Source: Brevibacillus sp. JNUCC-41 (lineage in GTDB: Bacteria > Bacillota > Bacilli > Bacillales > DSM-1321). From it: DNA of 64,000 nucleotides. The notes under the pieces are model-generated. The model had not been told where the DNA came from and did no database searches. It worked only from the letters and a program-made list of their open reading frames with translations. Positions 1-62,395 of the stretch are shown one piece after another (position 1 is the stretch's first letter; every line of letters starts with the position of its first letter). The stretch is taken from the NCBI RefSeq assembly GCF_014844095.1, contig NZ_CP062163.1, forward strand, positions 62,001-126,000, given 5' to 3'. The position numbers and the translations under genes are program-made.

Positions 1-179
1 AACTCTTGAATTGTAATGGGTTCCTTCATTAACTCCCAAATTTGCCCGCCTAGTTCACCTAAATTATAATATTTTCCGTTAGAAACGCTTAACATGACTT
101 TTTCCCCATCCATGTCACTTACTATGTTTCCTGGATTTTGGCTATATAGACTTTTTGTTTCAAGTTGATTAATATTCAT
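1..179 (-). CDS. Lasso peptide RRE protein B1 (PqqD-like), partial
   Basis: This is the N-terminal 59 codons of a PqqD-like RiPP recognition element protein; the rest lies beyond the left edge. Visible are an N-terminal strand with DMDGEKVMLSVSNG, then KYYNLGELGGQIWELM, the pattern of the stand-alone B1 proteins of Gram-positive lasso clusters. B1 binds the leader of the precursor and presents it to the B2 leader peptidase, which should be encoded further left. The ATG at 179 overlaps the end of the kinase gene by 11 bases, so translation is probably coupled. Family assignment is from sequence pattern and context. Confidence 0.85.
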   Translation of the reverse strand, partial: MNINQLETKSLYSQNPGNIVSDMDGEKVMLSVSNGKYYNLGELGGQIWELMKEPITIQE

Positions 180-1110
180 GAACACTTTCCTCCCTTTTTA
201 ATGCATGTAAAATTGTTTCGGATAAGTTCGGAGCCGTGAAACGGTCCGTTGGTCTACGTAGTTGGAAAAACTCGATTTTCTTAATCATTTTGGCTGAAGT
301 GTTGAAATGCCAGTCCATCAATCCAGATCTTTGGATAAAAAAATTGCGATATGTATGATGATATAATTTATAAAATCTTTGAAGAGATGGTATTGGCTTG
401 ATATCTATCTCGGTATCTTCACTCTTGATCAATTCAAAAACACCAGCAAGCGGGAGTTGTTCGGTAATAAACTGATCTTGAACAGGAACAGCGAATTTAT
501 CTTCTCTAACAATGAGTGGCTGATAGTTATTTGAATCCATTTCAAAATGATTTAAGCTCTCCAGCCATAATTTTTGTTGTGGATATGAAGGGGTTACAAT
601 GGGTATATTTTCATTATTTAGAGTTACTGGTATGACATCATCACTCATGAGCTTATAGCCCCTTTTTAAAAAAGCTGAAGCAAGAGTGGATTTCCCAGCA
701 CCAGAATCACCAACAATCGCATATGCCTTTCCATCTATGGCCACCGCACTTCCATGTATAGGAAGGATTTTTCTTTGCATCAAAATGGCACCCATGCATG
801 TTCCGAGGATATAAAGCCGTATCTCATCTTCTTGCGCCTCATCAATTGGACAAAATTCTATTCTATTACCACTTTGGATCAAGAAAATGGCAGTATTGGA
901 AACATGGAACATAATCCAGTCTTTCTTAATTACAAAATCATCTTCTGGAACTGAATGCTCAGACCATAATGCATGGAGATCCGCTTTTTCGATAACAATA
1001 TCCGTTTTATCATCCACTATATTAATAGGAAGCAATTCAGGCAATGCTATATCACTTGAAACGGTTAAACCATACGCTTCATAAACTGTTCTTATTTTGA
1101 TACCGATCAT
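169..1110 (-). CDS. HPr-kinase-like lasso peptide kinase (paeninodin PadeK type)
   Basis: Tailoring kinase of about 313 residues, homologous to the C-terminal domain of HPr kinase/phosphorylase. In paeninodin biosynthesis such a kinase phosphorylates the side chain of the C-terminal Ser of the precursor. Seen here: IHGSAV near residues 118-123, a Walker A loop GDSGAGKST at 134-142, and the SDD acidic motif at 156-158. It lacks the full HprK N-terminal domain organisation and lies between the precursor and B1 genes, which argues against carbon-catabolite HprK. A start at 1110 is preferred over the upstream ATG at 1128 because a GGGGG ribosome site lies about 8 bases before it. The precursor ends in Ser, as this enzyme class needs. 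Confidence 0.88.
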   Translation of the reverse strand: MIGIKIRTVYEAYGLTVSSDIALPELLPINIVDDKTDIVIEKADLHALWSEHSVPEDDFVIKKDWIMFHVSNTAIFLIQSGNRIEFCPIDEAQEDEIRLYILGTCMGAILMQRKILPIHGSAVAIDGKAYAIVGDSGAGKSTLASAFLKRGYKLMSDDVIPVTLNNENIPIVTPSYPQQKLWLESLNHFEMDSNNYQPLIVREDKFAVPVQDQFITEQLPLAGVFELIKSEDTEIDIKPIPSLQRFYKLYHHTYRNFFIQRSGLMDWHFNTSAKMIKKIEFFQLRRPTDRFTAPNLSETILHALKREESVHEY

Positions 1111-1189
1111 ATAAATACCCCCGTACATAAATAACGTCTCTTAATTAGACAGTTCGAATGTTTAATACTTTGTTATTCTTGAAGTCATA

Positions 1190-1214
1190 CCCCTATTAAC
1201 TGGATAAATAGGGG
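1190..1214 (-). promoter_or_regulatory. Stem-loop between precursor and kinase genes
   Basis: Perfect 8-bp stem CCCCTATT/AATAGGGG with a 9-base loop, 38 bases after the precursor stop. No T tract follows it on the minus strand, so it is probably an mRNA 3'-end stabiliser or partial attenuator that keeps precursor transcript more abundant than the downstream kinase and processing genes. The role is inferred. Confidence 0.6.
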
Positions 1215-1251
1215 CTTAGGGGAACCTAACAGACTTTGTAGCGTAAAAAGT

Positions 1252-1383
1252 TTAACTAAAAGTTATATCTCCTTTTGGAGTGTTTGATGGGAAAGCTGCA
1301 TCTGTATATTCCCCTTCAGTTCCAAGCATTGTTTGATTAACATCAAGAACTTCTAATTCTGGTTTTTTCCATTCCTTTTTCAT
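1252..1383 (-). CDS. Lasso peptide precursor A (paeninodin-like)
   Basis: A 43-residue peptide with an AGGAGG ribosome site. The 19-residue leader contains KKPELEVLDV and ends QTM, with Thr at the conserved -2 position. The core is predicted to start with Leu1: LGTEGEYTD forms a nine-residue ring (amide between the Leu1 amine and the Asp9 side chain), followed by a 15-residue tail starting AAFPSN and ending DITFS. Paeninodin (AGPGTSTPD ring, tail starting AFQ, C-terminal Ser) has the same ring size and the same Asp9-Ala10. The tail bulky residues that would plug the ring (Phe12, Phe23) are visible, but which is used is unknown. C-terminal Ser24 is the expected phosphorylation site. Flanked by cyclase and kinase genes in one operon. 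Confidence 0.9.
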   Translation of the reverse strand: MKKEWKKPELEVLDVNQTMLGTEGEYTDAAFPSNTPKGDITFS

Positions 1384-1398
1384 AGTATTCACCTCCTT

Positions 1399-3339
1399 TT
1401 AATTGAATCGTTTTAAAAATCGATACACAATTAAACTCCTCATTAGGAATTTATGGTCAGGATTCGTAGCAAGTTCGGGTTCAGTTCCTTTTATAACCGT
1501 TACTAAGGCATTCTTTATAGCTTGTCCATCCAGGAATTCCAGGGCTTTATCATCTGTGCTCAGCTGCTCAATCTCCTCTATGAATTCACCCCATTTAGGA
1601 AGCATACGGTGAATCCAATCAGCACCTTGCACACCTCTGTACCGTTGGTTTAGCCTTACTTTATCGGGTAAGACATTCACTGTAGCATTTCGAATCAGGG
1701 CACGATCCATCCCATTCTGTACATATTGACTTTCCGGTAGTGATAAACAAAAGCGAATAACACGGATATCATTAGTCGGGTCTCGCTTCCACAACTTATA
1801 TCGTAAGGAGAGTTTTGTGGAAAGCGTATTTCCTGCATTCCATTGAAAGATATCTTCAAAATGCTTTTTTCTTTCATTAAAAATATCAGAATTCGAATAC
1901 CAGCCTGTTTCATCTATGCCAAATTCTTTAAACCTGTCATATACCCCTGTTCCTTCTGCAAATCTTGGATTGATTAATGAAGGAATTTTATATGGCACAC
2001 CTTCCGGAAAGATTCGATCAATGATTGGAAAGCCGATTCTTGCAATGGTTTTCACCTTTCGCAATCTAGATCCGCCAACATTATTCCTATATTGTTCCAA
2101 CTCTTGATATAGTCGAACCCACTTTAGCCTTTTTAATAGAAGGGAGTAATACTCCAAGGGGAATCCCCAGGAAATTGAAAAGTTCCCTCTATCTCCATTA
2201 AGCAAAACACCCATCCCATCCTCATTCGCTTTTTCAAACATCCCTTTCAACCAGAAAGAATTTTCAAAAAACTTATATGGCATCTCCATGATGTCAAGAA
2301 AGTCTTCCATTTCGGAATAGGAGTCTTTCCCCTTAAAGTCACAATAATGATCAATAATGCCGCCAACGTGATCTACCGTCGATTTGATGAAAGGCCGCTC
2401 ATCAGCCAAAAAGTATTTAGGAGTAAAATCTTTAAAATCTTCGGGAGGAATATAACTATATGTATGTAGTGCAGTGCTTTCGCGCTGCAATTTATTCACA
2501 GCAAAGCCGACAACCGCCCCGGAATCCAATCCACCACTCAACTGGGCGCCAACTTTCCGATGTGTCCTTAATCTTGATGTAACAGCTTCCTGGAAGACAC
2601 TTTGAAATGCTTCTATGTAATCTTCATTAGATTTAAGTTTTAACTTATCCCCTTGAGTTAAATAGGAATATCGTTTTAAAGTTACTCTATTATTCTCAAT
2701 TGTTAAGCTATGAGATGGTGGTATCTGTCTTATGGTTATATACGGCGTTAATGAAGAATCTACTGCATCAATCATTCCCGATACGGCCAAATACTCAGCA
2801 AGCCACTGCTCATTCAACTTTTTTTCAATGAAAGGTAATGACAAAAGCGGTTCCATAGTCGTGCAAAAGGCAAATTTCTGATAGTTTTGGTGATAATAAA
2901 GGGTTCTGCTTCCCGAAAAATCCCTTGCTCCAAACAGCTTCTGTTTCTTTTCGTCCCAAATGATAAAAGCAAAATCTCCTATTAAGAACTTGGGGGCCTC
3001 TTCCCCCCACTTATAATAGGATAGTAGAATCAGTTCACTATCCGTCATGCCCTTTTGATCGGATGGCTTAACCTGTAACCTCTGGAATAACTCATCACGA
3101 TTATCAATAATCGCATCAGCAGTAATCGTACAGCGCCTTTCAAAATCATATAACGGGAGCTGCTCACCAACAGATTCCGGAGTAATCCATTGAGCATGAC
3201 AGCCGAGAAAAACCTTTTCTGAATTCCACATTTGGACTGAATCAGCAGGGTACTTTTGTAAAGCCGTCATCAAATTATGGCAATGTTGAAGATTCATAGG
3301 CTCTTCATTAAAATGATAAATACCGGCTATAGCACTCAT
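1399..3339 (-). CDS. Lasso cyclase C (asparagine synthetase-like)
   Basis: A 646-residue homologue of asparagine synthetase B that should adenylate the Asp9 side chain of the core peptide and close the macrolactam. The N-terminal glutaminase-like domain begins MSAIAGIYHF: the catalytic Cys2 of true asparagine synthetases is replaced by Ser, so glutamine cannot be used, as is usual for lasso cyclases. The PP-loop ATP pyrophosphatase signature SGGLDS is intact at residues 268-273. An AGGAGG ribosome site lies 5 bases before the ATG. The precursor gene starts 15 bases after this gene stops, so the order is C-A-K-B1, with C leading the operon. Confidence 0.9.
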   Translation of the reverse strand: MSAIAGIYHFNEEPMNLQHCHNLMTALQKYPADSVQMWNSEKVFLGCHAQWITPESVGEQLPLYDFERRCTITADAIIDNRDELFQRLQVKPSDQKGMTDSELILLSYYKWGEEAPKFLIGDFAFIIWDEKKQKLFGARDFSGSRTLYYHQNYQKFAFCTTMEPLLSLPFIEKKLNEQWLAEYLAVSGMIDAVDSSLTPYITIRQIPPSHSLTIENNRVTLKRYSYLTQGDKLKLKSNEDYIEAFQSVFQEAVTSRLRTHRKVGAQLSGGLDSGAVVGFAVNKLQRESTALHTYSYIPPEDFKDFTPKYFLADERPFIKSTVDHVGGIIDHYCDFKGKDSYSEMEDFLDIMEMPYKFFENSFWLKGMFEKANEDGMGVLLNGDRGNFSISWGFPLEYYSLLLKRLKWVRLYQELEQYRNNVGGSRLRKVKTIARIGFPIIDRIFPEGVPYKIPSLINPRFAEGTGVYDRFKEFGIDETGWYSNSDIFNERKKHFEDIFQWNAGNTLSTKLSLRYKLWKRDPTNDIRVIRFCLSLPESQYVQNGMDRALIRNATVNVLPDKVRLNQRYRGVQGADWIHRMLPKWGEFIEEIEQLSTDDKALEFLDGQAIKNALVTVIKGTEPELATNPDHKFLMRSLIVYRFLKRFN

Positions 3340-3482
3340 GTTTTCCTCCTGATTTGTTTGATTGTTGATTTATCCACTTATATCCATAATTTAAATTCGT
3401 TTAAGTTAGCATCTAGTATGCTTATTTTAACTTCCTTCTACGTTGGTTCATTACCTTGATGAAAATACTTCTATCATCTGAC

Positions 3483-3557
3483 TTAAAAAATTTCACCCCA
3501 ACTAATTTTAAGGGTGTCCATATTTCTTTCATTTGTAATAGAGGCATTTATATTCAT
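3483..3557 (-). CDS. Possible 24-residue leader ORF of the lasso operon
   Basis: A short ORF starts MNINASITNERN and ends SWGEIF. Its ribosome site (GGAGG, 5 bases before ATG) is as good as any in the window. It lies between the predicted lasso promoter and the cyclase gene, 143 bases before the cyclase start. No family is recognised. It may be a regulatory leader peptide, a small accessory protein or chance; its first four residues match those of B1 (MNIN), so it may also be a relic of a duplicated gene start. Confidence 0.35.
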   Translation of the reverse strand: MNINASITNERNMDTLKISWGEIF

Positions 3558-3608
3558 CCTTTCCTCCATATATGAATATATTTCTCTTTCGTACTCCACT
3601 AAGAATTT

Positions 3609-3667
3609 TTCGTTCTTTATAACGAATTAATTAAGTTAAAAATAACATTTATTTTTCTCTGTGTCAA
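3609..3667 (-). promoter_or_regulatory. Promoter and palindrome upstream of the lasso operon
   Basis: On the minus strand a perfect -35 TTGACA (3662-3667) is followed after 17 bases by TATTTT (3639-3644). Directly downstream, at 3609-3626, is the inverted repeat TTCGTT-ATAAAG-AACGAA, placed where a repressor would block initiation or early elongation. This is the best sigma-A-type promoter seen upstream of the cyclase gene. The regulator is unknown. Confidence 0.55.
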
Positions 3668-4699
3668 TTTAAAATACTATCTCTTCACAATGATTGTGAT
3701 TTAGAGAATAAACTGCATAAAATAGCTATTTTAGCTACACGCATTACACTTTCTTTAGTATATAGAAATGCCAGTTAGTGGGAAAGAAGCTATCAAGATG
3801 ATGAAGAAGGAAATTCTCTCAATCTAACATTTGAAAGCATTATTTCCAACAATGATTTAACACCTTTGTGAATAAATAAACGAATTAACTTTTGCTAATT
3901 ATATTTTTGTTTTAGGGGGGTAAAAACGTAAAGAAATAATTTATACAATACGAAGATACATTAACTGGAAGGAAAAATGTTTTTTATTCCAGAGACTGCA
4001 AATAATTAAAAAATATCACAACTATTATAAAAAAATAATTTGGAGATGACGTTGAAGAGGCCAAAGAGACGGCCTATTTTTTGCTCTAATATCTCTTTTC
4101 ACAAAAGATATATTGCCTAATGATGAAGTAAAATTAAGTGTAGAAAGGAAGAGGTGTTCCGTTCAAAATTACCTGATTGACTGATATGAAAGGAAATTTT
4201 TATTCCGGGAAAATAGGAAAAGGAAAAACCTGTTTTACAGTAAGCTAAATATCTTTTCAATTATTTAATCATAAAAAACAATCAAAATTTTTTTACTCCC
4301 AACACATTCATGAAAATTAAGGATTTGCTTACCATTTATAAAAGATTAAGAAATACCAAGGGCTGGATTACTTTTTTGATGGGATAGAATTCCATTTGAA
4401 TTTAAGGAGGCAGAGATAAGTGGTTATAACTACTGTATTTCTAAGGTGTGTAAAATGTACAAAGTTAATGAACAAACAGTGTTTAAAATGGTCAGAAAGT
4501 TATTTTTTTTACTTCAGTTTAGGTTTGATTTTCGTATATAAAGTTAAGGAATAGGGTGTTTTCCCCTACTCCACATATTAATTGTCACACCCAAAGAATA
4601 TATAAATGTTGGAAATAAAAATAGATATCTATGCAACAGAAAGATAACACAAAATACTATACTATTTAAATTAGCTCCCTTTTGTTTTAGATATTTTTT
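3668..4699. other. AT-rich non-coding stretch, no gene recognised
   Basis: About 1 kb without a convincing gene. It holds a terminator-like hairpin (4058-4082) and a 44-codon ORF on the plus strand starting with GTG at 4420 after an AAGGAGG site, ending at 4554; its product is Cys- and Phe-rich and unrecognised, and it may be the remains of a decayed gene. Base composition and scattered stops suggest degraded accessory DNA. Confidence 0.4.
4058..4082 (+). terminator. Terminator-like hairpin
   Basis: AGGCC/GGCCT stem with an 8-base loop followed by A and six T. The stem is short. No intact plus-strand gene precedes it, so it may be a remnant. Confidence 0.4.
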
Positions 4700-5905
4700 C
4701 TATTTAAAAACTTTGTACCTTGTCTTTCTCCAGAACCACAAAAAAGGACGTAATGGAAAATATAAAAAATGAAGGAGTTTAGGCAACTTCAAAGTATTTA
4801 CATCCATAGAACTTGGGAAAAATAATTTAATAATAAATATAAACTTATGCACATTCGACTTTTGTGAAAATAAATAACGATTAAGGAAGAAATATTTCTT
4901 CATATTTGTCAATAACGTATGATGCTTTTGATAATTAGCCAAGTTATCTTTATGCTGTAGTTCATTTAAATTACCCATTTCTATTATGAAAAAGTACGCC
5001 ATTTGTGCTTGCTTTCTTGAAAGTTTCTCAGTTGATAATAAATGCATCTCTTGATTGATTGGACTGTTTAGTAGCTGAGAAGCTAAAATAATTGCTTGTC
5101 CTCCTGAATGATTGTTTTGTAATATATTATTGTTAGTTATTCTTTTTCTTAGAATTTGATCAATATCTACCAACCAACGTAGACGAAACCAAGCATGTCT
5201 AGCACCATGTTCAACTAGGAATAAAAACAAATCATCTACTCCGAGATAGTAGACAGGATAGCTTGTAATTTCACTAATCCTTTTACGTTCCCATAATTCA
5301 TTAAAATTCGGCACCTTCGTAGGATAAGGGTGGATTCTCCAATGGACTTCAATCTCGATCCTCTTTTGAGGGTGAAAATAGCTTACGTGATGATTCATCC
5401 ATTTCCACTTGGCAAAGGGGATTTCCTCTCTTTCATAACCCAAATTCAATAAAAACTCGTCTGCTCTTTTTAAATCGGCTATTTGAATTAGAATATCTAA
5501 ATCCTTGGAAGTTCTCAAGGAAATATCTCCATATAAGTCAGCTGCAATTACAGGACCTTTCAAGAAAAGAAGTCGAACCTGATTTTCTGTAAACACTTTG
5601 CTTACTTGTTCCATCTCTCCGCTTAAGTGTAGCATTTGAAACGTATTTTTTTTATAATCATTGTACAAGGTTTGAATAACATGTGAAGGAACAATTTTTT
5701 CATCAATTTTAATTAACTTTGAATAAATTAATGGATAAACCCGATGATGTCTTGTTAAACTTAGGAATTTCTCCCAATCAATATCTTTAGGTAATTCAAT
5801 ACTTAATTTCTTTATATTATTTTCATCTTCTATTTTCAGGATTTCAAGTAACAAACTTAATTCCTTAGATAATAAATCAAAATCGAGATTGAAATTGTTA
5901 TCCAT
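4700..5905 (-). CDS. PF14907-type nucleotidyltransferase, probable lasso tailoring protein
   Basis: A 401-residue protein with the uncharacterised nucleotidyltransferase pattern: LKGP at residues 115-118, then a nucleotidyltransferase-fold segment DLYGDISLRTSKDLDILI at 123-140, with the acidic DLD pair at 135-137. Members of this family recur in paeninodin and pseudomycoidin-type lasso clusters, where I recall they act with the kinase on the peptide C terminus; I cannot verify the reaction here. The ATG at 5905 is chosen over 5923 because AAGGAGG lies between them, about 8 bases before it. It points the same way as the lasso operon but is 1.36 kb from it, and a terminator at 6016-6071 separates it from the polysaccharide operon. 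Confidence 0.75.
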   Translation of the reverse strand: MDNNFNLDFDLLSKELSLLLEILKIEDENNIKKLSIELPKDIDWEKFLSLTRHHRVYPLIYSKLIKIDEKIVPSHVIQTLYNDYKKNTFQMLHLSGEMEQVSKVFTENQVRLLFLKGPVIAADLYGDISLRTSKDLDILIQIADLKRADEFLLNLGYEREEIPFAKWKWMNHHVSYFHPQKRIEIEVHWRIHPYPTKVPNFNELWERKRISEITSYPVYYLGVDDLFLFLVEHGARHAWFRLRWLVDIDQILRKRITNNNILQNNHSGGQAIILASQLLNSPINQEMHLLSTEKLSRKQAQMAYFFIIEMGNLNELQHKDNLANYQKHHTLLTNMKKYFFLNRYLFSQKSNVHKFIFIIKLFFPSSMDVNTLKLPKLLHFLYFPLRPFLWFWRKTRYKVFK

Positions 5906-6015
5906 TGACTCCTCCTTAGGCATTTTAACTAATTTTGATATTTCCCCTCATCTGAACTCTGCTTGATATTAGTACCTCTACTCCAGGATAAACTTTTGGC
6001 TAAAAATCGCCATTC

Positions 6016-6071
6016 AAAAAAGGCTGTAATCATAACGAGATACTAATAGTATCAGTTATTTCAAAACAGCC
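6016..6071 (-). terminator. Terminator of the polysaccharide operon
   Basis: On the minus strand GGCTGT ... ACAGCC brackets an inner GATACTA/TAGTATC stem (6039-6053) and AATAAC/GTTATG arms, followed by six T. It lies 50 bases after the aminotransferase stop and isolates the eps operon from the downstream nucleotidyltransferase. Confidence 0.85.
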
Positions 6072-6121
6072 ATATGATTTTTAACTTGTTACTCGTTTAT
6101 AATAATGATATTAAAAAGATT

Positions 6122-7285
6122 TTATTTTTTAGAAAGTGTAACTAAAATAGTGTTAATTACTCTTTCCTGTTCTTCAATCGTCATATTTGAACCTGATGGC
6201 AAGCAGATACCGTTTCCAAAGAGATGATCTGAGATACTTAACTGTTCATCATGGGGAAAGTATTTGCACCCTTCAAAAATTGGCTGGAGATGAAGTGGTT
6301 TCCATACAGGCCTTGCTTCAATATTTACATCCGCTAGTGAATTAATTATATCCACTGAAGAAAATCCGAGTTTTTCATTATTTACTGTTAATGTAGTTAA
6401 CCAACGATTAGAAAACGTATCCTCTAGTTCAGGCATAAATTGTAAGCCCTCAATTTGTTCTAGAGCTTGTTCATAACGTTGAAAAACTAACCGTCTAGCA
6501 TTTATACGGTCTTCCAATACCTCTAACTGTGCCCGTCCTATACCTGCAAGAATATTACTCATACGATAATTAAAACCTATCTGACTATGCTGGTAATGCA
6601 TAGCAGAATCACGTGCTTGCGTGGCTAAAAATCTAGCTTTCCGTAACGATTCTTCATCATCTGACACGAGCATCCCACCACCAGATGTAGTAATAATTTT
6701 ATTTCCATTAAATGAATAAACCCCAAATTTACCGAAAGTTCCGCTTTTCTTTCCTTTATATGTTGAACCAATCGATTCAGCTGCATCTTCAATAATAGGC
6801 ACTCTATATTGATTACAAAGTGATACAATTTCATCCATCTTAGCACTCTGGCCATATAAATTCACCACAATAACTGCTTTAGGAAGATTGCCTTGTTGCT
6901 TTGCTCCAACAAGGGCCCTTTCTAATGCTTTTGGGGACATATTCCAAGTGTCTGGCTCAGAATCAATAAAGACTGGTTCTGCCTTCTGATAAACAATCGG
7001 GTTAGCGCTAGCAATAAATGTAAGGGATGAACAGAACACTTTATCGTTCTGTTTTACATCTAACAATTGTAACGCTAAATGGATTGCTGCTGTACCGGAG
7101 CTGAGTGCCGCTGCACCTTTTGTGCCTGCATACTCAGCCAATTCTTTTTCAAAGGCGTCAACATTAGGACCAAGCGGCGCAATCCAGTTGGATTCAAACG
7201 CTTCATTAATATATTTTTGTTCGTTTCCACTCATATGTGGTGATGACAAAAATATTCTTTTCTGCTGTATAGTTGATTGTGTCAT
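6122..7285 (-). CDS. Sugar nucleotide aminotransferase (PglE/EpsN-like)
   Basis: A 387-residue PLP-dependent enzyme of the DegT/DnrJ/EryC1 family. N-terminal SSPHMSGNEQKYINEAFESNWIAP, ALSSGTAAIHLAL (cofactor phosphate binding), EDAAESIGS and the Schiff-base region SFNGNKIITTSGGGM with the Lys in GNK. Together with the upstream dehydratase and acetyltransferase it should convert the 4-keto intermediate of UDP-GlcNAc into UDP-4-amino-4,6-dideoxy-GlcNAc, the precursor of UDP-N,N'-diacetylbacillosamine. It is the last gene of the operon, 17 bases after the acetyltransferase. The sugar assignment comes from the trio of genes, not from this protein alone. Confidence 0.88.
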   Translation of the reverse strand: MTQSTIQQKRIFLSSPHMSGNEQKYINEAFESNWIAPLGPNVDAFEKELAEYAGTKGAAALSSGTAAIHLALQLLDVKQNDKVFCSSLTFIASANPIVYQKAEPVFIDSEPDTWNMSPKALERALVGAKQQGNLPKAVIVVNLYGQSAKMDEIVSLCNQYRVPIIEDAAESIGSTYKGKKSGTFGKFGVYSFNGNKIITTSGGGMLVSDDEESLRKARFLATQARDSAMHYQHSQIGFNYRMSNILAGIGRAQLEVLEDRINARRLVFQRYEQALEQIEGLQFMPELEDTFSNRWLTTLTVNNEKLGFSSVDIINSLADVNIEARPVWKPLHLQPIFEGCKYFPHDEQLSISDHLFGNGICLPSGSNMTIEEQERVINTILVTLSKK

Positions 7286-7302
7286 AATATCACGACCTTT
7301 TA

Positions 7303-7926
7303 TTATTCTATTGATTTAGCAGGTGTCCCTGCTACTTTTTTGAATTCTCCTACATCTCGTATAACAGTTGCTCCTGCACCAACAATACACCAATTACCTA
7401 TACTTATATTTGGAATAATTGTTACACCTGCGCCGATATGACTTCCTTCATCTACTTGAACATTTCCAGTTAATGTAGCATTTGGAGAGAGATGAACAAA
7501 GTTCCCAATTCTGTTCTCATGTTCTACAATCACACCTGTGTTTATTATAGCATGCTGCCCAACCTGAGTATCTGCATTAATAATGGCACCTGGCATTACA
7601 ACCGTTCCTAATCCTATTGAAGCAGTTGGACTTATAATTGCACTACGATGTATAAGAAGTGCGTACCGGTCGTACGGAATTTTTAATGTTTCTACAATTT
7701 TCTTACGAATTTCATTATTACCTATTGCAACAATAAAACTAAAATGGGAGTTACTTATCAATTGATTAACTAAGGAAATAGGACCGTATAAAGTCCCATT
7801 CTGATGTTTAGTATCTATAAATCTATCATCTAAATATGCCCCTATTTCGTATTCCTTTAAAGAAAGTAAGATATCCTCAATTACTTTACTATGGCCACCC
7901 TGCCCAATAATACAGATTTTTTTCAT
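7303..7926 (-). CDS. Sugar O/N-acyltransferase, left-handed beta-helix (PglD/EpsM-like)
   Basis: A 207-residue NeuD/PglD-type transferase: N-terminal Rossmann-like nucleotide-sugar domain ([15 protein letters not shown]), then hexapeptide repeats (for example [21 protein letters not shown] and [17 protein letters not shown]) forming a left-handed beta-helix. The conserved catalytic His is seen in [20 protein letters not shown]. It should acetylate the 4-amino group of the UDP-sugar made by the neighbouring aminotransferase. Its start overlaps the sugar transferase stop by 4 bases, indicating coupling. Confidence 0.87.
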
Positions 7927-8552
7927 AAATGCTTCTCTTGCATTGATTCTTTTTGATATGTACCCCTAAATTTTTCAATGGTAACATGGCCATTCTGACT
8001 AATACCTTCAGACTTAAACACCTTTTGCACTGTCATAAATAGGATTTTCATATCCAACCAAAAAGAGCGATTATCAACATACCAAACATCCAATTTGAAT
8101 TTTTCCTCCCATAAAATAGCATTTCGACCATTTACCTGTGCCCAGCCAGTAATACCAGGACGAACTTCATGCCGTCTAGCTTGCTCAGGTGTATATAACT
8201 CCAAATACTCTATTAATAACGGACGAGGACCGACTAGACTAATATCACCTTTTAATACATTATACAGTTGGGGCAATTCATCCAAACTAAGCTTTCGGAG
8301 TAACTGTCCAAACTTTGTTAAACGCACATGGTCAGGCAGCAATTCACCTTTTTCATCCCGCTCGTCTGTCATAGAGCGAAATTTGTAAACATTAAACGAC
8401 TTTCCATACATTCCAGGACGTTGTTGTTTAAATATTATAGGTGATCCTAATTTACACTTTATAAGCAAACCAGTTATCAAAAAAACGGGTGACAAAAAGA
8501 TAAGCCCTAAAAAAGAGAAAATAAGATCAAATAGTCTTTTCAATATAATCAC
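7923..8552 (-). CDS. Undecaprenyl-phosphate sugar phosphotransferase (PglC/EpsL-like)
   Basis: A 209-residue monotopic bacterial sugar transferase. It has an N-terminal membrane helix ([20 protein letters not shown]), the KFRSM motif, the [19 protein letters not shown] segment with the catalytic Asp-Glu pair, and the VGPRPLL and [13 protein letters not shown] motifs. It should transfer the first phospho-sugar, plausibly diacetylbacillosamine-1-phosphate, to undecaprenyl phosphate on the cytoplasmic membrane face and so start repeat-unit assembly. The annotated start is GTG at 8552; TTG at 8543 is also possible. It overlaps the upstream glycosyltransferase by 26 bases. Confidence 0.9.
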
Positions 8553-9720
8553 TCTTTTTCTTTTTAGAAATTAAATAGTTAAATAAATTTATTTGTTTAT
8601 TTATCACTTTTTCTTCATCAAATAGTTCTTCTACAATTTTCCGGCTCTCGTTTCCAAATTTCACTCTTTTATCTTTATTTAAGAAAAGCTGAATCATCTT
8701 TTCAGACAATTCTTTTGATGATCCTTTATTTACCAAATACCCGTTTCTTTCGTTAAACACTTCTTCCCGACATCCCCTAATATTTGTTGCAATAACCGGT
8801 AACTTCATTGACATTGCTTCAATAATAGATCTTGGTAAGCCTTCACGATAAGATGGAAGAACAAATACATCAGTTATAGCCATTAGATCTGGAATATCTT
8901 TTCTAAATCCTAATTGGATAATCCCTGGGTTATTTAATAACTCTTTCATCTTATGATAACTACTTTGGTCACGTTCACTTTCCAGCAGACTTCCTATTAA
9001 AACCAGTTTAATATTATTATGCATTTTAGAAATACCATTAAAAGCTTCTAATAGTTCAAAAATTCCTTTTTCTTTTACTAACCGTCCTACAAACATAAAC
9101 ACAACATCCTCCTGATCAACATCAAGATTAGATCTAAGTTCACCTACCTTAGATACTGACTTCAGGTTAGGATTAAATTTATTATGGATATCAACACCGT
9201 TACTCAAATGGAGTATGCGATTTTCTTTATGACAGAATTTATCTTTTAAAGCAAGCTCATAATCTTCACTGCTTTGTAAGAGGAGCCAATCTGTCAAAAA
9301 GCGGGCAGCATATTTCTCGATATAATAGAAAAGTTTATATTCTCTAGGTGACATATCTTCATGAAAATAAAAACCGTGAGCTGTATAAATGATATTTTCT
9401 ATACCCGCCAATTTGGCTGCAACCCTACCTATTAAGGCGGCAATTGGTGTATGTACATGGACAATATCATATTTTTCTCTTTTCATTAACTTGAACAGTT
9501 CAAAAACTGATTTGAGATTAGAAACAGGGTTAATTTGGCGATCGATTTTTATATCCACCATCGTCAACCCTTCTGTTCTTAACCTTTCAAATCGTCCGGT
9601 GTCTGTACATGCGTTATGTACCTCATACCCTTCCTCCATTGACTTGAGTATCAATGGCTTTAGTAGAGCGTCAACACTCAAATCAATTGCACAAATTTGT
9701 AGTATTTTTTTATTTTGCAT
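8527..9720 (-). CDS. Glycosyltransferase family 4
   Basis: A 397-residue GT-B glycosyltransferase. The N-terminal acceptor domain shows [23 protein letters not shown] and a YTAHGF motif; the C-terminal domain shows [11 protein letters not shown] and the donor-binding EX7E region within [19 protein letters not shown]. It should add a sugar from a nucleotide donor to the lipid-linked repeat unit in the cytoplasm. The specificity cannot be told from sequence. It follows the dehydrogenase gene by one or two bases and overlaps the sugar transferase gene. Confidence 0.85.
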
Positions 9721-9721
9721 C

Positions 9722-11002
9722 CTATAATCTCCAAAGAGTAATATTATCAGGGCAGGTTTCTCTTTCTAACACACTCTTAATATCAACAACTATTCCTTTA
9801 CCATGCTTAAGTAATTGACTAAATTGTTCCCATCCTTTTTGAATATAATCATCGTGGGCTACAGCAAAAACAACTACATCTGCTGGCTTAAGTTGATTAT
9901 GAGGAATTAATTCAACCCCGTATTCTTTTACTGCTTCACCAAAGTCAGCCATTGCATCTGTGACTTGGACCTCAATTCCAAACTCCTCTAGTTCTCGAAT
10001 AACATCTATTACTTTAGAATTACGAAGATCTGGTACATTTTCCTTAAAGGTAAGACCCAGTACAGTTACTCTCGCCCCTTGTATAGGCATATTTTTATGA
10101 ATCATTTGTTTAACCAAAGAAGTTGCAATGAATTTACCCATTCCATCATTAATACGGCGGCCCGCTAAAATAACTTCGGGGTGATAACCTACGCTTTCTG
10201 CTTTATGAGTTAAATAATATGGGTCAACACCAATACAATGTCCTCCAACTAAACCAGGGGAAAATTTCAGGAAGTTCCATTTCGTTCCGGCAGCCTTTAA
10301 TACTTCATTCGTATCAATATTTAGACGGTCAAATATAATGGATAACTCGTTCATTAGTGAAATGTTAAGATCACGTTGGGTATTTTCAATAACTTTTGCA
10401 GCTTCTGCTACCTTAATAGAACTAGCACGGTAAACACCTGCTTCTACTACAGATCCATACACACTAGCTACAGTTTCTAATACATCTTCATTTTGTCCTG
10501 ATACAACCTTGGTGATAGTTGTGAATTTATGCTCCTTGTCTCCTGGATTAATACGTTCAGGTGAATAACCTACAAAGAAATCCTTCCCTGCTTTTAGGCC
10601 CGATGCTTTCTCCAGTACTGGAACACATTCCTCCTCTGTTGCCCCAGGGTAAACAGTTGACTCATATACAACAATTGTACCTTTTGATAGATTTGCACCT
10701 ACTGTTTCTGAAGCCTTTAGTAATGGCGTTAAATCTGGTTGCTTATTTTCATTAATTGGGGTTGGAACAGCGACAATAATAAAATCACTATCATGCAATC
10801 TAGAACCATCATTGGTAAACTCAATTTCAGCTGCTAAGAGATCATTAGTCTCTACTTCATTTGTATAATCTATTCCATCTATTAAGGTATTAATACGGTG
10901 TTCATTAATATCAAAACCAACAATTCGATGTGTTTTACCAAAAGCTACTGCTACCGGTAATCCTACGTATCCAAGTCCAACTACTGCTATTTTTCTATTC
11001 AT
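9722..11002 (-). CDS. Nucleotide-sugar 6-dehydrogenase (WbpO/TviB/UDP-GlcDH family)
   Basis: A 426-residue UDP-sugar dehydrogenase that oxidises C6 of a UDP-hexose to a uronic acid with two NAD+. Rossmann motif VVGLGYVGLPVAVAFG at the N terminus, the catalytic Cys in GGHCIGVDPYYL, and LGLTFKENVPDLRNS in the C-terminal UDP-binding domain. The family branch resembles UDP-GlcNAc or UDP-GalNAc dehydrogenases (TviB/WbpO) but the substrate is not certain. The ATG at 11002 starts MNRKIAVVG with a GGAG site upstream; the in-frame extension to 11173 would run back into the epimerase gene and is rejected. Confidence 0.85.
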   Translation of the reverse strand: MNRKIAVVGLGYVGLPVAVAFGKTHRIVGFDINEHRINTLIDGIDYTNEVETNDLLAAEIEFTNDGSRLHDSDFIIVAVPTPINENKQPDLTPLLKASETVGANLSKGTIVVYESTVYPGATEEECVPVLEKASGLKAGKDFFVGYSPERINPGDKEHKFTTITKVVSGQNEDVLETVASVYGSVVEAGVYRASSIKVAEAAKVIENTQRDLNISLMNELSIIFDRLNIDTNEVLKAAGTKWNFLKFSPGLVGGHCIGVDPYYLTHKAESVGYHPEVILAGRRINDGMGKFIATSLVKQMIHKNMPIQGARVTVLGLTFKENVPDLRNSKVIDVIRELEEFGIEVQVTDAMADFGEAVKEYGVELIPHNQLKPADVVVFAVAHDDYIQKGWEQFSQLLKHGKGIVVDIKSVLERETCPDNITLWRL

Positions 11003-11009
11003 TTCTATA

Positions 11010-12014
11010 TCACACTCCATAATATTCTCTGTACCAATCAATAAAGTTACTAATTCCATCTTTAATATCCGTTTGAGGTTTAAAATTAATATCACGATAT
11101 AAATCTTCAACATCCGCATATGTTTCCGGAACATCACCGGCTTGAAGTGGTAAAAACTCTTTCTTAGCTTCAATTCCTAATTTTTCTTCGATAGCATTGA
11201 TAAACTCCATCAATGTTACTGGATTGTTATTTCCGATATTATAAACTTTGTATGGAGCGTAACTTGTTCCTGGATCAGGCTTCTTTCCACTCCATTCTAA
11301 ATTTGGTTCTGGCTTTCGTTGAATCAAACGAAAAATACTTTCAACAATATCATCAACATACGTAAAGTCGCGCATCATATTTCCGTTATTAAATACCTTT
11401 ATAGGTTCACCGTTGATAATTGCCTTTGTAAACAAGAACAATGCCATATCTGGTCTACCCCATGGACCATAAACAGTAAAGAACCGAAGTCCAGTAGTAG
11501 GCAAGCCGTATAAGTGACTATATGTATGTGCCATTAATTCATTTGCTTTCTTCGTTGCAGCATACAAACTAATTGGATGATCCACATTATCATGAACTGA
11601 AAATGGAAGGTTCGTATTTGCACCATACACTGAACTTGAGGAGGCATAAATTAGCTGTCCAACTTTGTTGTGGCGACATGCTTCTAAAATGTTAGTAAAA
11701 CCAACTATGTTTGATTCAATGTATGCATGTGGATTCTCTAAGCTATAGCGTACGCCTGCTTGAGCAGCTAAATTCACAACTGCGTCTGGCATATGTTTTT
11801 CAAAAATAGCAGTAATATTCTCGCGATCTTCGAGATTCGTTTTCTCAAAATAAAAATTTTTATTCTCTATCAACGAAAGTCTTGATTTTTTTAAATTCAC
11901 ATCATAGTAGTCATTTAAATTATCAATTCCAATAACCGTAATACCGTTTGTTAATAACTTTTTTGATAAATGCGAGCCTATGAAACCAGCTGCACCCGTA
12001 ACTAATACTTTCAT
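11010..12014 (-). CDS. UDP-glucuronate 4-epimerase-like SDR enzyme
   Basis: A 334-residue extended short-chain dehydrogenase. NAD-binding [11 protein letters not shown] at the N terminus, [15 protein letters not shown], the SSSSVYG and YAATKKANE (YxxxK) catalytic motifs, and [17 protein letters not shown], which is typical of the CapI/LpsL UDP-glucuronic acid 4-epimerases. It should interconvert UDP-glucuronate and UDP-galacturonate, or the amino-uronate made by the next gene. Seven bases separate it from the dehydrogenase, and the two form a uronic acid module. Confidence 0.85.
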
Positions 12015-12031
12015 TATAATTACCCCTTTAT

Positions 12032-13150
12032 TTAAATTTTATATTGACCTTGGAATTTACTTACGATTTTCTTCACTTCGAATTCCTCAATAACCCTTTT
12101 TCTTGCTTGCTTACCTAATAATTTTTTTTCTTCTTCGGTTTTATTTAAAAATTCATTTGTTGCATGCGCAAGTATTTCAGCATTACGAGGAGGAACCACT
12201 ACGCCATAAGGACCGACAATAAATGCCGAATCGCCAACGTCGGTTACAATACACGGAGTTTCACAAGACATAGCTTCACCAATAACATTTGAAAAACCTT
12301 CTCCAGAGGACGATGAAATCAATATATCAGCAGCAGATAGAATTTTCGGTATATCTTCTCTTCTACCAAGTAAAAACACATTTTCTTCAACCTTATTTTG
12401 CTTTAATAATCCTATTAGTTCCTTATTATTTTCATCAATATTTACTCCACATAATAAGAAATTAACATCTGACCTCTTTAACTGAATTAAATGAATTGCC
12501 TTTATTAAATTCGGGTAATCCTTTTGGACATTCCATCTTCCTACATGTACTATAAGCGGTTTATTTTTAGGTAATTTTATTTCTTCCTCAATTAAACTCT
12601 TTGCATTAGGTAGTTTATAAAATGTATCTAATTCAAAACCATTTGGTATTGTTATCATATTAAAAGTACTGTAACCAAATTTGGCATGAATTTCTGCTGC
12701 ATTTATTGAGCAACTGATTACAGAATCTACCTTTTTGGAAAGTAATGCATTTAATTTAGCAATCTTTAATACCAAACTTTTATTCATATTTTTCTCAAGA
12801 TTCGAGTGCCTTATACCCCATATAAGTTTTTGTTTAGTGGAACGATTTTTAATTAAAAAACCAAATAAATCTGCATGATACATCCATGTTTGAATAATCT
12901 GTGCATCTTTCACAAGAGACCTAGCCCTTTTTATAAAAAAAGGATTAATTATACCTCTTTTCATCCCTAGAGTATGTACTGGTATTCCCATCTCTCTTAT
13001 TTTAGGACCGAAAACCCCTTCATCCATCATAGAGATAACTTCGAAATCATACTTAGTATGGTCAGCATTTTTTAATAGCTTGAAAAGCATAGTTTCTGCG
13101 CCACCAACATTTAATCCAACTATAATGTGGATAATTTTCAGCTTAGACAT
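12032..13150 (-). CDS. Glycosyltransferase family 4
   Basis: A 372-residue GT-B enzyme. The N-terminal region [15 protein letters not shown] is a GT4 glycine-rich acceptor-domain motif; the C-terminal domain contains [15 protein letters not shown] and [19 protein letters not shown] with the two Glu of the EX7E motif. It should extend the lipid-linked oligosaccharide. Donor and linkage are unknown. It ends 17 bases before the epimerase start. Confidence 0.85.
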
Positions 13151-13278
13151 ATATTTATCACATCACCTAATGTATTTCTAATTTTAATAAAACATTTCAT
13201 TTTTACCCTTTAGTTTAAAAGTAATGAATTTAGCTAACTATTAATTAATAAGCAAAAACATAAACTATATTTCTAATA

Positions 13279-14244
13279 TTATTTTTTCACTACTGTTTCA
13301 CTTTCTATATCTATCCAGCTACCCATTTTCTTGTCCCACTCTAGCGGAGTTATATTTTGTGAACCACCACCGTGATAAAAAGTTATTTCTCCAAAATAAA
13401 TTTCCCCTTTAATATTGTACAAATCTACCCTACAGTGAGGAAACGGTTTAGATAGTATCTCTGCATATTCAATCATTTTATCTAAGTTTTGAGGTTTGGA
13501 TATCAAGGATTGATCAAAGTGTTCCCTTCCTACTTTCACATCTAAATAATTAAAGTTTGTATCATATACATTTCTTCGAGCATCTGCACTATGAGACCCA
13601 TCAGGATTAGTTGTATCTATATCTACAAATATTAACTTTACTTTTCCTTCAAAGCATAAAAATCGATAATCTATTAGTGAACTATTATCTTCACTTTCTA
13701 ATACTTCTTCAACCATTAATTTAGGTATAATATTTTTATAATTCCACTCTCTTGACTGTAAATAATAGTTCTGTTTCAAAGCATAATTAAAATTCCTTTT
13801 AAATTTCTCTTCATCAAAAAAGGTATTCCTATCATATATTATATTTGTACCTGAACCATGATTGCATTTGATGAAAACTTTATCAGGCAGGTCTTCAAAT
13901 TTAATTTCATCAGCATTATTGTATACCCCATAAATATTGGTCAATATTTGACCTAATCCACACTTTTTTATATACTCTCTAACTCTATATTTATCGGAAC
14001 AAATAGTTAATAATGGATCTCTATTATTAATTTTCAACCACCATAATTTTTCATTAAATAATACAGGATTTTCTAAATTCAATTTTTTACCTGTATTTTC
14101 TTTATATTTCATCTTAGCAAATTTTTCATCACTAATTTTAGATACTGCCCTAACTTTAATTTTATTAGCTGATAAGTATAGTTTTTTTATTGATTTATTT
14201 CTATTAGAAATTCTTCTTAACGTATTTTTGATTTGAAAAATCAT
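13279..14244 (-). CDS. ATP-grasp polysaccharide protein (TupA-like)
   Basis: A 321-residue protein of the TupA-like ATP-grasp group found in capsule and teichuronopeptide loci. Visible features are FNEKLWWLKINNRDPLLTICSDKYRVREY, the nucleotide-binding FIKCNHGSGTNII, and the metal-binding C-terminal segment CRVDLYNIKGEIYFGEITFYHGGG (key D, E). Such proteins are thought to ligate an amino acid or similar group to a sugar carboxylate, which fits with uronic acid genes next door, but the reaction is not established. Confidence 0.75.
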   Translation of the reverse strand: MIFQIKNTLRRISNRNKSIKKLYLSANKIKVRAVSKISDEKFAKMKYKENTGKKLNLENPVLFNEKLWWLKINNRDPLLTICSDKYRVREYIKKCGLGQILTNIYGVYNNADEIKFEDLPDKVFIKCNHGSGTNIIYDRNTFFDEEKFKRNFNYALKQNYYLQSREWNYKNIIPKLMVEEVLESEDNSSLIDYRFLCFEGKVKLIFVDIDTTNPDGSHSADARRNVYDTNFNYLDVKVGREHFDQSLISKPQNLDKMIEYAEILSKPFPHCRVDLYNIKGEIYFGEITFYHGGGSQNITPLEWDKKMGSWIDIESETVVKK

Positions 14245-14589
14245 TTTATAAGACCTCCCTTAAGATAGAAATATCACATGCAACGTCACTTAGCTACTCG
14301 GGATAACTTCTCTCGGATAATGGCTCAGGCACATTTTCTAATAATGAGACCATATCCATGACAGGCTTTATAGAGTGTCAACTAAAGAATATCGCAATCG
14401 GAGACATAACTCTTTGCTTGTTCATCATTAATTCTGCTTAATCTAACATGATTAAATACGATTGTATTGCCCACTACCCTAGTAAATAAACTCACATCAG
14501 TTTTGTGCACTCATATCATTTATCACCGAAAATTTCAAGGTAAAATATTGGTATTTATCACAAAAAAATTATTATCACATTTGCGATAA
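14245..14589. other. Gap inside the eps operon without a gene
   Basis: About 345 bases between the flippase and ATP-grasp genes, unlike the tight spacing elsewhere in the operon. A minus-strand TTGACA is present but without a good -10. A 42-codon minus-strand ORF (starting GTG, product NTIVFNHVRLSRIND in its middle) may be the relic of a lost gene; it is not recognised. This looks like the scar of a deleted glycosyltransferase gene. Confidence 0.4.
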
Positions 14590-15834
14590 TCATTTAACGT
14601 GATATAATTTATTTTTTTTATATATAATATAAAACAATAAACTGCCACTAAGTAAAGCTTGAAACATACGAGAGATTAATAGGGTATATGATGCTCCATT
14701 AATACCATCTGTACTAATGAAATAGTAACTACTAATTATGGTAACAATAGTTACTATTAAATTCATTATGGGTTGTATTTGAATAGCTCTTGCAGCAACA
14801 ATGGACACTGTAAAAAAGGTTGTAAGAAAACCAAATATCAAGGAAGATGAAATTATTATAAAAGAATCATTATAGGGAGTATACTTACTACCATATAAAA
14901 TATTCAGTATTAATTCTCCTTGTAGAACAATTAAAGTGATTATTAACAAAGAAACAGTTATTGAGACTATAGATAATTGCAAGTTAACCTTCAAAAACTT
15001 TTTGATTTTATTTTGTTGGTATGCATTAGCAATTCCTGGGGCAACCAGTAACGATATTGGTGTAATGAGCATATTGCTAGCAATCAATATATAATATAAT
15101 GCTGAAAATATTCCTACCTCTTCTGTCCCTGAAAAATATTCAAGAAAGTATTTTGGGATATTAGTGTTCAAGGAACTAATCAACGAAACTACCCCTAATG
15201 GAAATGCCATCTTCATTAATTGTATCGAGCTGCGATCAAATACAGGAGTAAATCCTCCCAAAGGTTTTAAATGTTTCAAATCATAATTCACTAATCTTAC
15301 TATCATTACAATTAGCAACCCCAAAAGAGAGAAAATAAGGCTTCGAGTATAAAAATAAAGGATACCTACTGCAACTATACTAGAAATCCCTCTATACATT
15401 TGGGATTTTCCTATTATATCAATCTTATTTTTCTTTTGATAAAGCCCCATACAAATATCACTTAAACCTTCAAAATACTTTATAATCCCCAATAATATGA
15501 TTACTAAAATAGTTTCAATATTGTTACTATAAAAAAATGCTATAGGAATTATCAATATGAAAGAAATAGTTAAGTGTATAATTCTCCCACCAAAATATTG
15601 AGCGAAATTATATTCATTATTACTGTCAGTCGCTAAAAAGGTTCTTAATTGAAAGCTAAAAAAAAGTACAATGGGAGCAGTAATAGCTAATCCAAGAGAG
15701 TAGACTCCAAGGTCAGCAGTAGAGCCAAATCTGGCAATTATAGTAATAATAATCCATTGGGACAATGCATAAATTATATTCCCAAACAATGACCATGATA
15801 ATTTAGAAAATATATTGTTTAATTTTTTCCACAT
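14590..15834 (-). CDS. Polysaccharide flippase (Wzx/MATE-like)
   Basis: A 414-residue integral membrane protein with about 12 hydrophobic helices and few charged residues in between, of the PST/MOP exporter type. It opens WSLFGNIIYALSQWIIITII, the usual flippase start. It should move the undecaprenyl-linked repeat unit to the outer membrane face for polymerisation. The matching polymerase is probably the Wzy-like protein at 22.1-23.4 kb. Confidence 0.85.
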   Translation of the reverse strand: MWKKLNNIFSKLSWSLFGNIIYALSQWIIITIIARFGSTADLGVYSLGLAITAPIVLFFSFQLRTFLATDSNNEYNFAQYFGGRIIHLTISFILIIPIAFFYSNNIETILVIILLGIIKYFEGLSDICMGLYQKKNKIDIIGKSQMYRGISSIVAVGILYFYTRSLIFSLLGLLIVMIVRLVNYDLKHLKPLGGFTPVFDRSSIQLMKMAFPLGVVSLISSLNTNIPKYFLEYFSGTEEVGIFSALYYILIASNMLITPISLLVAPGIANAYQQNKIKKFLKVNLQLSIVSITVSLLIITLIVLQGELILNILYGSKYTPYNDSFIIISSSLIFGFLTTFFTVSIVAARAIQIQPIMNLIVTIVTIISSYYFISTDGINGASYTLLISRMFQALLSGSLLFYIIYKKNKLYHVK

Positions 15835-15973
15835 TTTCGTTTTCCTTATATAATAATCCTGTAAATTTTATTTTTAATGACTTATTTAAACAATTTATTT
15901 CATCTTTTTTTTATTAATTAAAAAAGAGGAAAATCAAACCCGTCCTTTACAAGCAATTTTTTTCATTCTCCTC

Positions 15974-17809: not shown

Positions 17810-18065
17810 TTCCCCCTTTAATATTGTTTGATTTACTCTCTATTAAAAACAGTTCATTTATGAATGTATTCTATTTCACATGCTTTTCATTGTTTATTTA
17901 AGAATGAATGATACTGTTTATGTTTCTGTATCTTTTGACTATTTTAAAAATACCTTTATGATTTAAGGCGTTAAATTATTGGTCGTTCAGAAACAATAAA
18001 CCCTAAAACTTTATAAGAAGGCAAAATTTTTTTAATATTAAATCGCTTCCTAATTATCGATCATT

Positions 18066-18830
18066 TTAAAAGATTCCAAAAATTTTTCTTTTAAATGGCA
18101 CTGGTTTTTCAACTGCAGGACTTTGGTTCTTTAATAGCTGTTCGGCATTTTCTTTAAAATAAAATGTACGTTGTATTCCATATGACTTAGTGATTGTTTC
18201 ATAGGCATGTTGTAACGTGAACCCTCTAGAGCCAATATTATGGGCATCTGTTGCAATAAAATGGGCTAAATTATGTTCGATTATCTTTTTTGAAAATGAT
18301 TGGATACTTTTACCGAAGTTCCCGATTATACTGCCAGAGGTAAGTTGAGTTAGCGCGCCCTCCTGAACCAATTCAAATAATAGTTTATGATTTTCTATCA
18401 ATTCCTTATTTCTCTCCGGATGTACGATAATCGGTGTTATTCCTTTAAGCAGCAGTTCGTAAATCACTTCTTGTGTATATATAGGAACCCTTCCCGACGG
18501 GAGCTCTAACAGTAAATATGTACCGTTATCATCTAAGGTTAGGATTTCTTTTTTTTCAAGTGAATTAAATATGTCCCGATGAATTCTTACTTCTTGTCCG
18601 AGATGAATGGTAAGAGAAATATTGTTTCGTTGTAAACTCTCATTAAACCGCACTGCACGGTCAATGATGCTACTCTTAACATTTACATATTTCTCATTTA
18701 AGTGATGTGGCGTGGCGTATATATGAGTGATTCCTGCTTCTACCGCTTTTCTTACCATATTCATACTTTCATTCATGTCCACGGAACCATCATCAACTCC
18801 TGGGAGAATGTGACAATGTATGTCGATCAA
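18066..18830 (-). CDS. PHP-domain protein-tyrosine phosphatase (CapC/CpsB/YwqE-like)
   Basis: A 254-residue manganese-dependent phosphatase of the PHP family, which dephosphorylates the tyrosine cluster of the cognate BY-kinase. Motifs: IDIHCHILPGVDDGS (metal-binding His5 and His7), TPHH around residue 41, VHPERN, and FIATDAHNIGSR with the Asp-His pair. It starts with TTG at 18830 after AAAGGAAG; no in-frame ATG gives the conserved start. With the kinase and modulator upstream it forms the control module that sets polymer chain length and export. Confidence 0.88.
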   Translation of the reverse strand: MIDIHCHILPGVDDGSVDMNESMNMVRKAVEAGITHIYATPHHLNEKYVNVKSSIIDRAVRFNESLQRNNISLTIHLGQEVRIHRDIFNSLEKKEILTLDDNGTYLLLELPSGRVPIYTQEVIYELLLKGITPIIVHPERNKELIENHKLLFELVQEGALTQLTSGSIIGNFGKSIQSFSKKIIEHNLAHFIATDAHNIGSRGFTLQHAYETITKSYGIQRTFYFKENAEQLLKNQSPAVEKPVPFKRKIFGIF

Positions 18831-18967
18831 ATTCCATACACTTCCTTTTAAAATAAATAGGTAAAAAAGTCCCGATGTATAAAATAGGAATTATTACCCT
18901 GATTAATAGTAGCATATAAAACTGCCATCAAACAGGGTGTTATTTTGTCGAAAATTGTTTTATTTCG

Positions 18968-19645: not shown

Positions 19646-19680
19646 AAATCCCGCTTCCTTTCATACTGCTTTTATACGGA

Positions 19681-61882: not shown

Positions 61883-62395
61883 TTAAAAGCTCATTAATGT
61901 CAAGACATCATAGCCGTCTAATTTATCTTTACCATCCAAGTCTGTCAATTCAATAAGGAATGCAATCCCGGCTACAATTCCGCCAAGCTGTTCAACCAAT
62001 TTGATCGTCGCTTCGATTGTTCCCCCGGTAGCAAGCAAATCATCCGTGATCAGGATACGCTGTCCCGGTTTAATGGCATCTTTATGGATTGTCAATACAT
62101 CCTTGCCATATTCTAACCCATATTCGACTTTTATCGTTTCACGTGGAAGTTTTCCTTCTTTTCTCACTGGCGCAAAGCCCACTTCCAATGAGTATGCGAC
62201 TGGACATCCGATAATGAATCCGCGTGCTTCCGGCCCGACCACCAAGTCGATATTTTTATCGCGGGCGTACTCGACGATTTGGTCTGTTGCATATTTATAA
62301 GCTGCGCCGTTATCCATTAATGTTGTAATATCTTTGAAGACAATACCCGGTTTTGGCCAGTCTTGCACAATTGTTACATATTGCTTTAAATCCAT
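61883..62395 (-). CDS. apt: Adenine phosphoribosyltransferase
   Basis: 170 residues, standard length. Start [24 protein letters not shown], and the PRPP-binding motif [19 protein letters not shown]. Makes AMP from adenine and PRPP. Overlaps the recJ stop by 10 bases, so the two are coupled. Confidence 0.97.

Follow-up and report, generated by a model that had tools for sequence, protein, structure and literature searches.

Between a cyclase gene and a kinase gene of this chromosome lies an open reading frame of only 43 codons, and the locus raises the question of whether this is a lasso peptide precursor and whether the leucine with which its core would begin sets it apart from its relatives. 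The window analysed here is a stretch of 64,000 nucleotides, its first letter being base 62001 of a single contig of 5,490,698 bases; feature coordinates are window positions, with negative numbers lying to its left. The gene, here called A, occupies 1252 to 1383 on the minus strand (43 codons plus stop), between the cyclase gene (3339 to 1399) and the kinase gene (1110 to 169), with a ribosome site, AAAGGAGGTGA, immediately 5' of its ATG. The first 19 codons (1327 to 1383, minus strand) specify the leader peptide MKKEWKKPELEVLDVNQTM, in which WxxPxL forms the RRE-binding motif and position -2 is Thr, and the following 24 (1255 to 1326, minus strand) the core peptide LGTEGEYTDAAFPSNTPKGDITFS, which ends in Ser24 and for which alignment predicts a ring between Leu1 and Asp9.

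When scanned without its first Met, the peptide scored 59.8 bits (cut-off 27; E = 1.5e-16) with the NCBIfam model NF033524 (‘paeninodin family lasso peptide’); a Pfam scan of it gave zero matches at E <= 0.001. Within the genus, 19 of 36 genomes (this one included) carry a precursor of the NF033524 family, compared with none of 14 control genomes. Thr-2, Asp9 and the C-terminal Ser are all present in A and are invariant across all ten aligned precursors, and the five closest Leu1 precursors in that alignment are 74-93% identical to A over leader and core. Judged on these sequence comparisons gene A is confirmed as genuine, far above chance expectation, and since its NF033524 match exceeds the cut-off it is to be classed with an already named kind, the NCBIfam paeninodin family. 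The preliminary description, which had placed a 43-codon lasso precursor gene between cyclase and kinase genes and had drawn attention to Thr-2, Asp9 and the terminal Ser, therefore stands on these points; its remark that routine annotation would pass over so short a gene is open to doubt, given that NCBI has a curated model for it.

The order on the minus strand is s41 (a small ORF discussed below), C, A, K, B1, B2 and D. By family models, C (1399 to 3339, minus strand) encodes an asparagine-synthetase-like lasso cyclase of 646 residues, with an SGGLDS motif at residues 268-273 that is identical in all 73 aligned sequences (own included; rows kept by length). Its matches to Asn_synthase and GATase_7 exceed their cut-offs, and its NF033535 score of 390 bits falls under the cut-off of 525, which we take to reflect the breadth of the family because all other lasso genes are present. 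K (169 to 1110, minus strand) was recognised by Pfam and alignment as an HPr-kinase-like precursor kinase of 313 residues; its Hpr_kinase_C score of 33.2 bits is 0.1 bit short of the cut-off (33.3), and His119, Lys140, Asp157 and Asp158 are kept in 76-77 of 77 aligned sequences (own included; rows kept by length). A His-Lys-Asp-Asp motif of such kinases is described in the available text of PMC9266682. B1, identified by family models as a PqqD-like RRE of 96 residues on the minus strand, leaves the window at position 1, running from 179 to -111 (6889 of L002); the part within the window scores 88.2 bits with NF033536 (cut-off 80), and the protein minus its first two codons 68.1 bits with PqqD (cut-off 23.4). 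The absence of a B2 peptidase to the left of the window had been named beforehand as an outcome that would count against the lasso assignment, and a transglutaminase-like B2 was found there on the minus strand at -627 to -145 (L002 6373-6855; E = 3.2e-19). Its catalytic residues, Cys85 and His120, are present in all 62 aligned sequences (own included; rows kept by length). An ABC exporter, D, follows B2 outside the window (-2630 to -816, minus strand). The operon is complete: the full C-A-K-B1-B2-D set is present in this genome with its conserved motifs intact. Two features of the paeninodin family are found here, namely a split B1 (RRE) and B2 (Cys/His) with an asparagine-synthetase-like cyclase, and a C-terminal Ser with an HPr-like kinase carrying His-Lys-Asp-Asp. 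The genes A, C, B1 and B2 listed in the preliminary description are thus all present, but that list left out K and D, as well as a gene close by for a nucleotidyltransferase-like protein. This last gene, N (4700 to 5923, minus strand), matches NTP_transf_5 (PF14907) at 189.6 bits against 31.2, is the sole match to this family in the whole genome at E <= 0.001 and is possibly the counterpart of PsmN. With s41 in between, N is 1.4 kb upstream of C, and it may therefore be outside the operon.

In named genomes 101 relatives were found, and the best 80 of these 101 were analysed. C, K, B1, B2 and D were all found beside A in 64 of these 80 stretches, with C in 76, K in 78 and N in 55; at least one of the five was absent in 16, some of which are contig ends and seven of which are Cohnella stretches with B1 and B2 unmatched. 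Among the same best 80 of 101, the leader motif begins with W in 78, Thr stands at -2, 13 residues past the start of the motif, in all 79 that have the motif, and the C-terminal residue is Ser in 79 of 80, which fits the kinase step. An acid is found at core position 9 in 63 of the 80 and is absent there in 17, so that ring size is not constant across the family. In 16 of the best 80 the acid is at position 10 with none at 9, two of them having another at 7 (loci L042-L047, L049, L050, L053, L055-L057, L062, L068, L072 and L088). Such cores may either form ten-residue rings or be cut one residue later; a search of an open-access paper collection for ten-residue lasso rings, with exact terms, matched no paper. 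A draft genome of Peribacillus frigoritolerans (G007; L029 8001-8126/L020; L155) contains a core identical to that of the window behind a leader without the WxxP tryptophan, and sequencing errors are likely in this draft because C, B2 and D also match in several frames.

On this evidence A is very probably the precursor of a paeninodin-type phosphorylated lasso peptide, with a 24-residue core and a Leu1-Asp9 ring. For the point of cleavage, the available text of PMC13381572 numbers the residues of the Pba leader W-15, P-12 and L-10. Transferred to the L043 precursor of the same strain, Paenibacillus alginolyticus DSM 5050, this numbering suggests a cut after Met19 with Leu at +1, and the same rule applied to A gives Leu1 and Asp9. 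A cut one position further on, past Leu20, would instead yield a core of 23 residues closed as a Gly1-Asp8 ring (computed mass 2386.060 Da); Gly follows Leu in A and in 16 of the 24 Leu1 relatives among the best 80 of 101, and lasso peptides commonly start with Gly and commonly have rings of eight residues. This would, however, shift the Thr to -3, against the 13-residue spacing fixed in 79 of 79 relatives, and against the penultimate Thr which, in the available text of PMC10368454, is described for lasso precursors before an Ile(-2) case. In addition, the residue after Leu is other than Gly in 8 of the 24 Leu1 relatives, and cores of the AGPG and GGPG types place the Asp at 9, not 8, in the alignment. 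The later cut was rejected on the Thr spacing, the non-Gly residues and the AGPG/GGPG alignment, and we regard it as very unlikely. It might also be supposed that the cluster is decayed and non-functional, since its proteins depart from near-constant residues at a few places, for example Asn551 of C (Arg in 68 of 73) and Ser53 of B2 (Thr in 60 of 62). Each of the six operon genes nevertheless has an open frame, C, K, B1, B2 and D are as long as their intact relatives, and the five closest aligned Leu1 precursors remain 74-93% identical in both parts of the peptide; with open genes, intact lengths and conserved precursors, decay was rejected as exceedingly improbable. That the product is instead a linear phosphorylated peptide (an LPP-type RiPP) and no lasso has next to no probability and was rejected, for although LPP clusters share a kinase, an NTP transferase, an RRE and an exporter, and the discovery clusters lie in capsule loci in the account available from PMC13381572, as the operon here adjoins an apparent polysaccharide locus, both a cyclase and B2 are present here, the leader of A has WxxP and lacks the LPP precursor motif YxxPxVLxHQxIxFET (same source), the genome holds no SipW-like signal peptidase over the cut-off (one match, 22.9 against 51.85 bits, at base 3,039,331), and the lone PqqD-like match in the genome besides B1 is distant (base 3,583,604) and barely over its cut-off (25.4 against 23.4 bits).

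With the Leu1-Asp9 lasso as the preferred product, its first residue can be set beside those of its relatives. Position 1 among the best 80 of the 101 relatives is Ala in 36, Leu in 24, Gly in 10, Lys in three and Gln in two, with Met, Arg, Thr, Tyr and Glu once each. Leu is thus the second commonest first residue (24 of 80), in a sample that leans to Leu because six of the ten rows of the query alignment, the first row among them, were Leu1 precursors. A less biased model search found a Leu1 precursor of the LGxxGxYTD or LGxxGxFTD type in at least eight of the 19 genus members with a family match (G000, G007, G015, G018, G021, G022, G028 and G033), a lower bound that leaves L025 (G032) outside it. 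Beyond this family, a Leu1-Asp8 ring has been demonstrated for citrulassin N, according to the available text of PMC12971885. The supposedly rare Leu1 is common within this bacterial group, and the suggestion that it made A a noteworthy new member overstated the novelty; the assignment to the paeninodin group with a predicted Leu1-Asp9 ring is well supported, and it is the claim of novelty from Leu1 that falls away. Paeninodin clusters are reported, in the portions available of the respective papers, from 37 of 51 Peribacillus frigoritolerans genomes (PMC11678259), from the olive-grove strain UJA_MA_369 (PMC11602404) and from Neobacillus (PMC11705953). No paper in an open-access collection matched the exact fragments of the core of A that were tried. 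As a precursor, A is one more sequence in a well-sampled family; its value lies in being a clear counter-example to the rarity of Leu1, and one with exact masses.

From the genes, their order, the conserved motifs and the family match we infer every chemical step, the threading and any activity of the product. The precursor gene sits in a Peribacillus chromosome, and B1 would bind the leader of its product through W5-x-x-P8-x-L10; the available text of PMC5067487 describes B1 handing the leader to B2. Kinase K probably phosphorylates the C-terminal Ser at the precursor stage, the action described for such a kinase in the available part of PMC9266682, which also describes the PsmN-dependent hexose of pseudomycoidin. 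B2 would then cleave after Met19 with Thr at -2 as guide, this Thr being the penultimate leader residue of earlier lasso precursors, to which Ile(-2) is a newer exception (PMC10368454, in the text available). The ATP-dependent cyclase C would link the amine of Leu1 to the side chain of Asp9 around the tail, and the resulting lasso of 24 residues would have a computed mass of 2499.144 Da, plus 79.966 per phosphate. The NTP_transf_5 protein N may attach a hexose to the phosphate, after the pseudomycoidin proposal, and the ABC protein D would export the product.

The spacer between A and K contains a hairpin, CCCCTATT/AATAGGGG (1186 to 1214, minus strand), without a T-run, which is possibly an mRNA stabiliser of the precursor transcript. 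The folding of this spacer was no better than that of shuffled sequences (z -0.61; 49 of 200 shuffles as good), and both promoter-like sites (25 against 29.6, sd 5.9) and terminator-like sites (7 against 4.4, sd 2.4) were near shuffle level. The operon directly adjoins an apparent long polysaccharide locus (6122 to 20370, minus strand) with genes for an aminotransferase, an acetyltransferase, a sugar transferase, glycosyltransferases, nucleotide-sugar enzymes, a tyrosine kinase and chain-length proteins, these names being read from the translations.

The upstream edge of the operon, directly before C, is marked by s41 (3422 to 3547, minus strand), a conserved ORF of 41 codons with no named family: zero Pfam or NCBIfam matches were obtained for it. 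It was matched in 28 of 36 genomes of the genus (E <= 0.01) and, at the level of the order and with a composite query, in 53 of 299 (E <= 0.001). Pairwise differences between 32 ungapped copies fall on the three codon positions as 3794/2744/7613, a pattern which points to coding, although in the same raw count residue-altering codon changes outnumber silent ones (6117 against 4315). An Rfam search of positions 1-7500 gave two matches only, both far below gathering scores; the 123 conserved bases that precede the cyclase gene therefore represent no known RNA. Elsewhere in the order, two genomes have the s41 sequence as the N-terminus of a protein of 257-271 residues with no Pfam family over cut-off (L176 1716-2489, minus strand; L177 2371-3186, plus strand). 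The genes for these longer proteins directly follow a ParA-like (AAA_31) ATPase gene and, in L176, a Wzz gene as well. This setting hints at a polysaccharide-related role of the small s41 protein.

Among the 19 genus members with a lasso precursor, 12 have A at a distance of 2.0-2.4 kb from s41, and in one of these 12 (G022) s41 is interrupted by two stops; in the remaining seven (G004, G009, G010, G012, G024, G032 and G033) s41 either stands apart or was not found. Six of the 12 (G006, G015, G019, G020, G021 and G034; loci L142, L143, L148, L149, L152 and L153) have a second s41 after D, and in all six C-terminal pieces of D stand behind it, which suggests that these exporter fragments are left over from a previous lasso operon. 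The present chromosome, G007, G018 and G028 each showed one s41 and no D pieces, and in G016 a D piece occurs although s41 is not duplicated. When the present chromosome was compared with one lasso-free genome, G023, which has no family match, the two aligned through s41 (3573 to 3418) and again from -2848, so that about 6.3 kb holding just C-A-K-B1-B2-D stands where G023 has 55 bases; for G015 two such genomes were compared (G005 and G023). Between G020, with an AGPG-type core, and G000, the polysaccharide proteins on the outer side are 95-97% identical and the operons are unlike. By 40-residue blocks, identity falls along C from an initial 80-90% to 32-68% over the second half; the first two blocks of K stand at 32%, and D ranges over 72-98%.

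We read these arrangements as units of s41 plus operon that would have arrived beside older ones, which then decayed. The three two-copy genomes that were aligned (G015, G020 and G021) have 2.7-3.8 kb between the second s41 and the conserved flank, and the bracket is therefore no clean insertion; s41 may merely mark the edge of a variable region, because the polysaccharide side itself varies. Among the best 80 of the 101 lasso loci s41 was matched at E < 1e-5 in four, all from genomes of the genus (G006, G007, G022 and G028), and the link between s41 and lasso operons is accordingly one seen in this genus only. Tentatively, and as a reading we would not hold to be probable, the lasso operon may be an exchangeable allele slot bordering a variable polysaccharide locus, in which units of s41 plus operon, of Leu1 or Ala/Gly1 type, replace older ones and leave a second s41 and an exporter tail, the product being a surface-linked molecule for signalling or competition, specific to the strain and selected together with the polysaccharide type. 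The turnover in this reading is supported by the genome comparison; the function is a guess. The s41-adjacent arrangement could explain the turnover of lasso types between close relatives and in that respect would matter more than A itself.

Paeninodin itself, from Paenibacillus dendritiformis C454, begins with Ala1, whereas A has Leu1, a GxYTDAAFP ring and loop, 24 residues and an NTP_transf_5 gene nearby. The two share the NF033524 family, a WxxP or YxxP leader, Thr-2 and a ring closed on position 9 (predicted for A), together with a C-terminal Ser with its kinase and the split B1/B2 described in the available texts of PMC9266682 and PMC5067487. The Pba cluster of Paenibacillus alginolyticus DSM 5050 (L043) has in common with the present one a WxxPxL leader, a kinase, an NTP transferase and an exporter (PMC13381572, as far as available) and, by the present reading of L043, Leu1; it differs in its core, LDPKNGNHLD..., with the acid at 10 and none at 9. 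Pseudomycoidin, from Bacillus pseudomycoides, is alike by gene content, with a kinase and psmN, annotated as a nucleotidyltransferase, in the available account of PMC9266682. Citrulassin N shares Leu1 as the ring residue, in a Leu1-Asp8 ring (PMC12971885, in the part available), and differs in coming from Streptomyces, in its 8-residue ring, in its citrulline and in belonging to another family.
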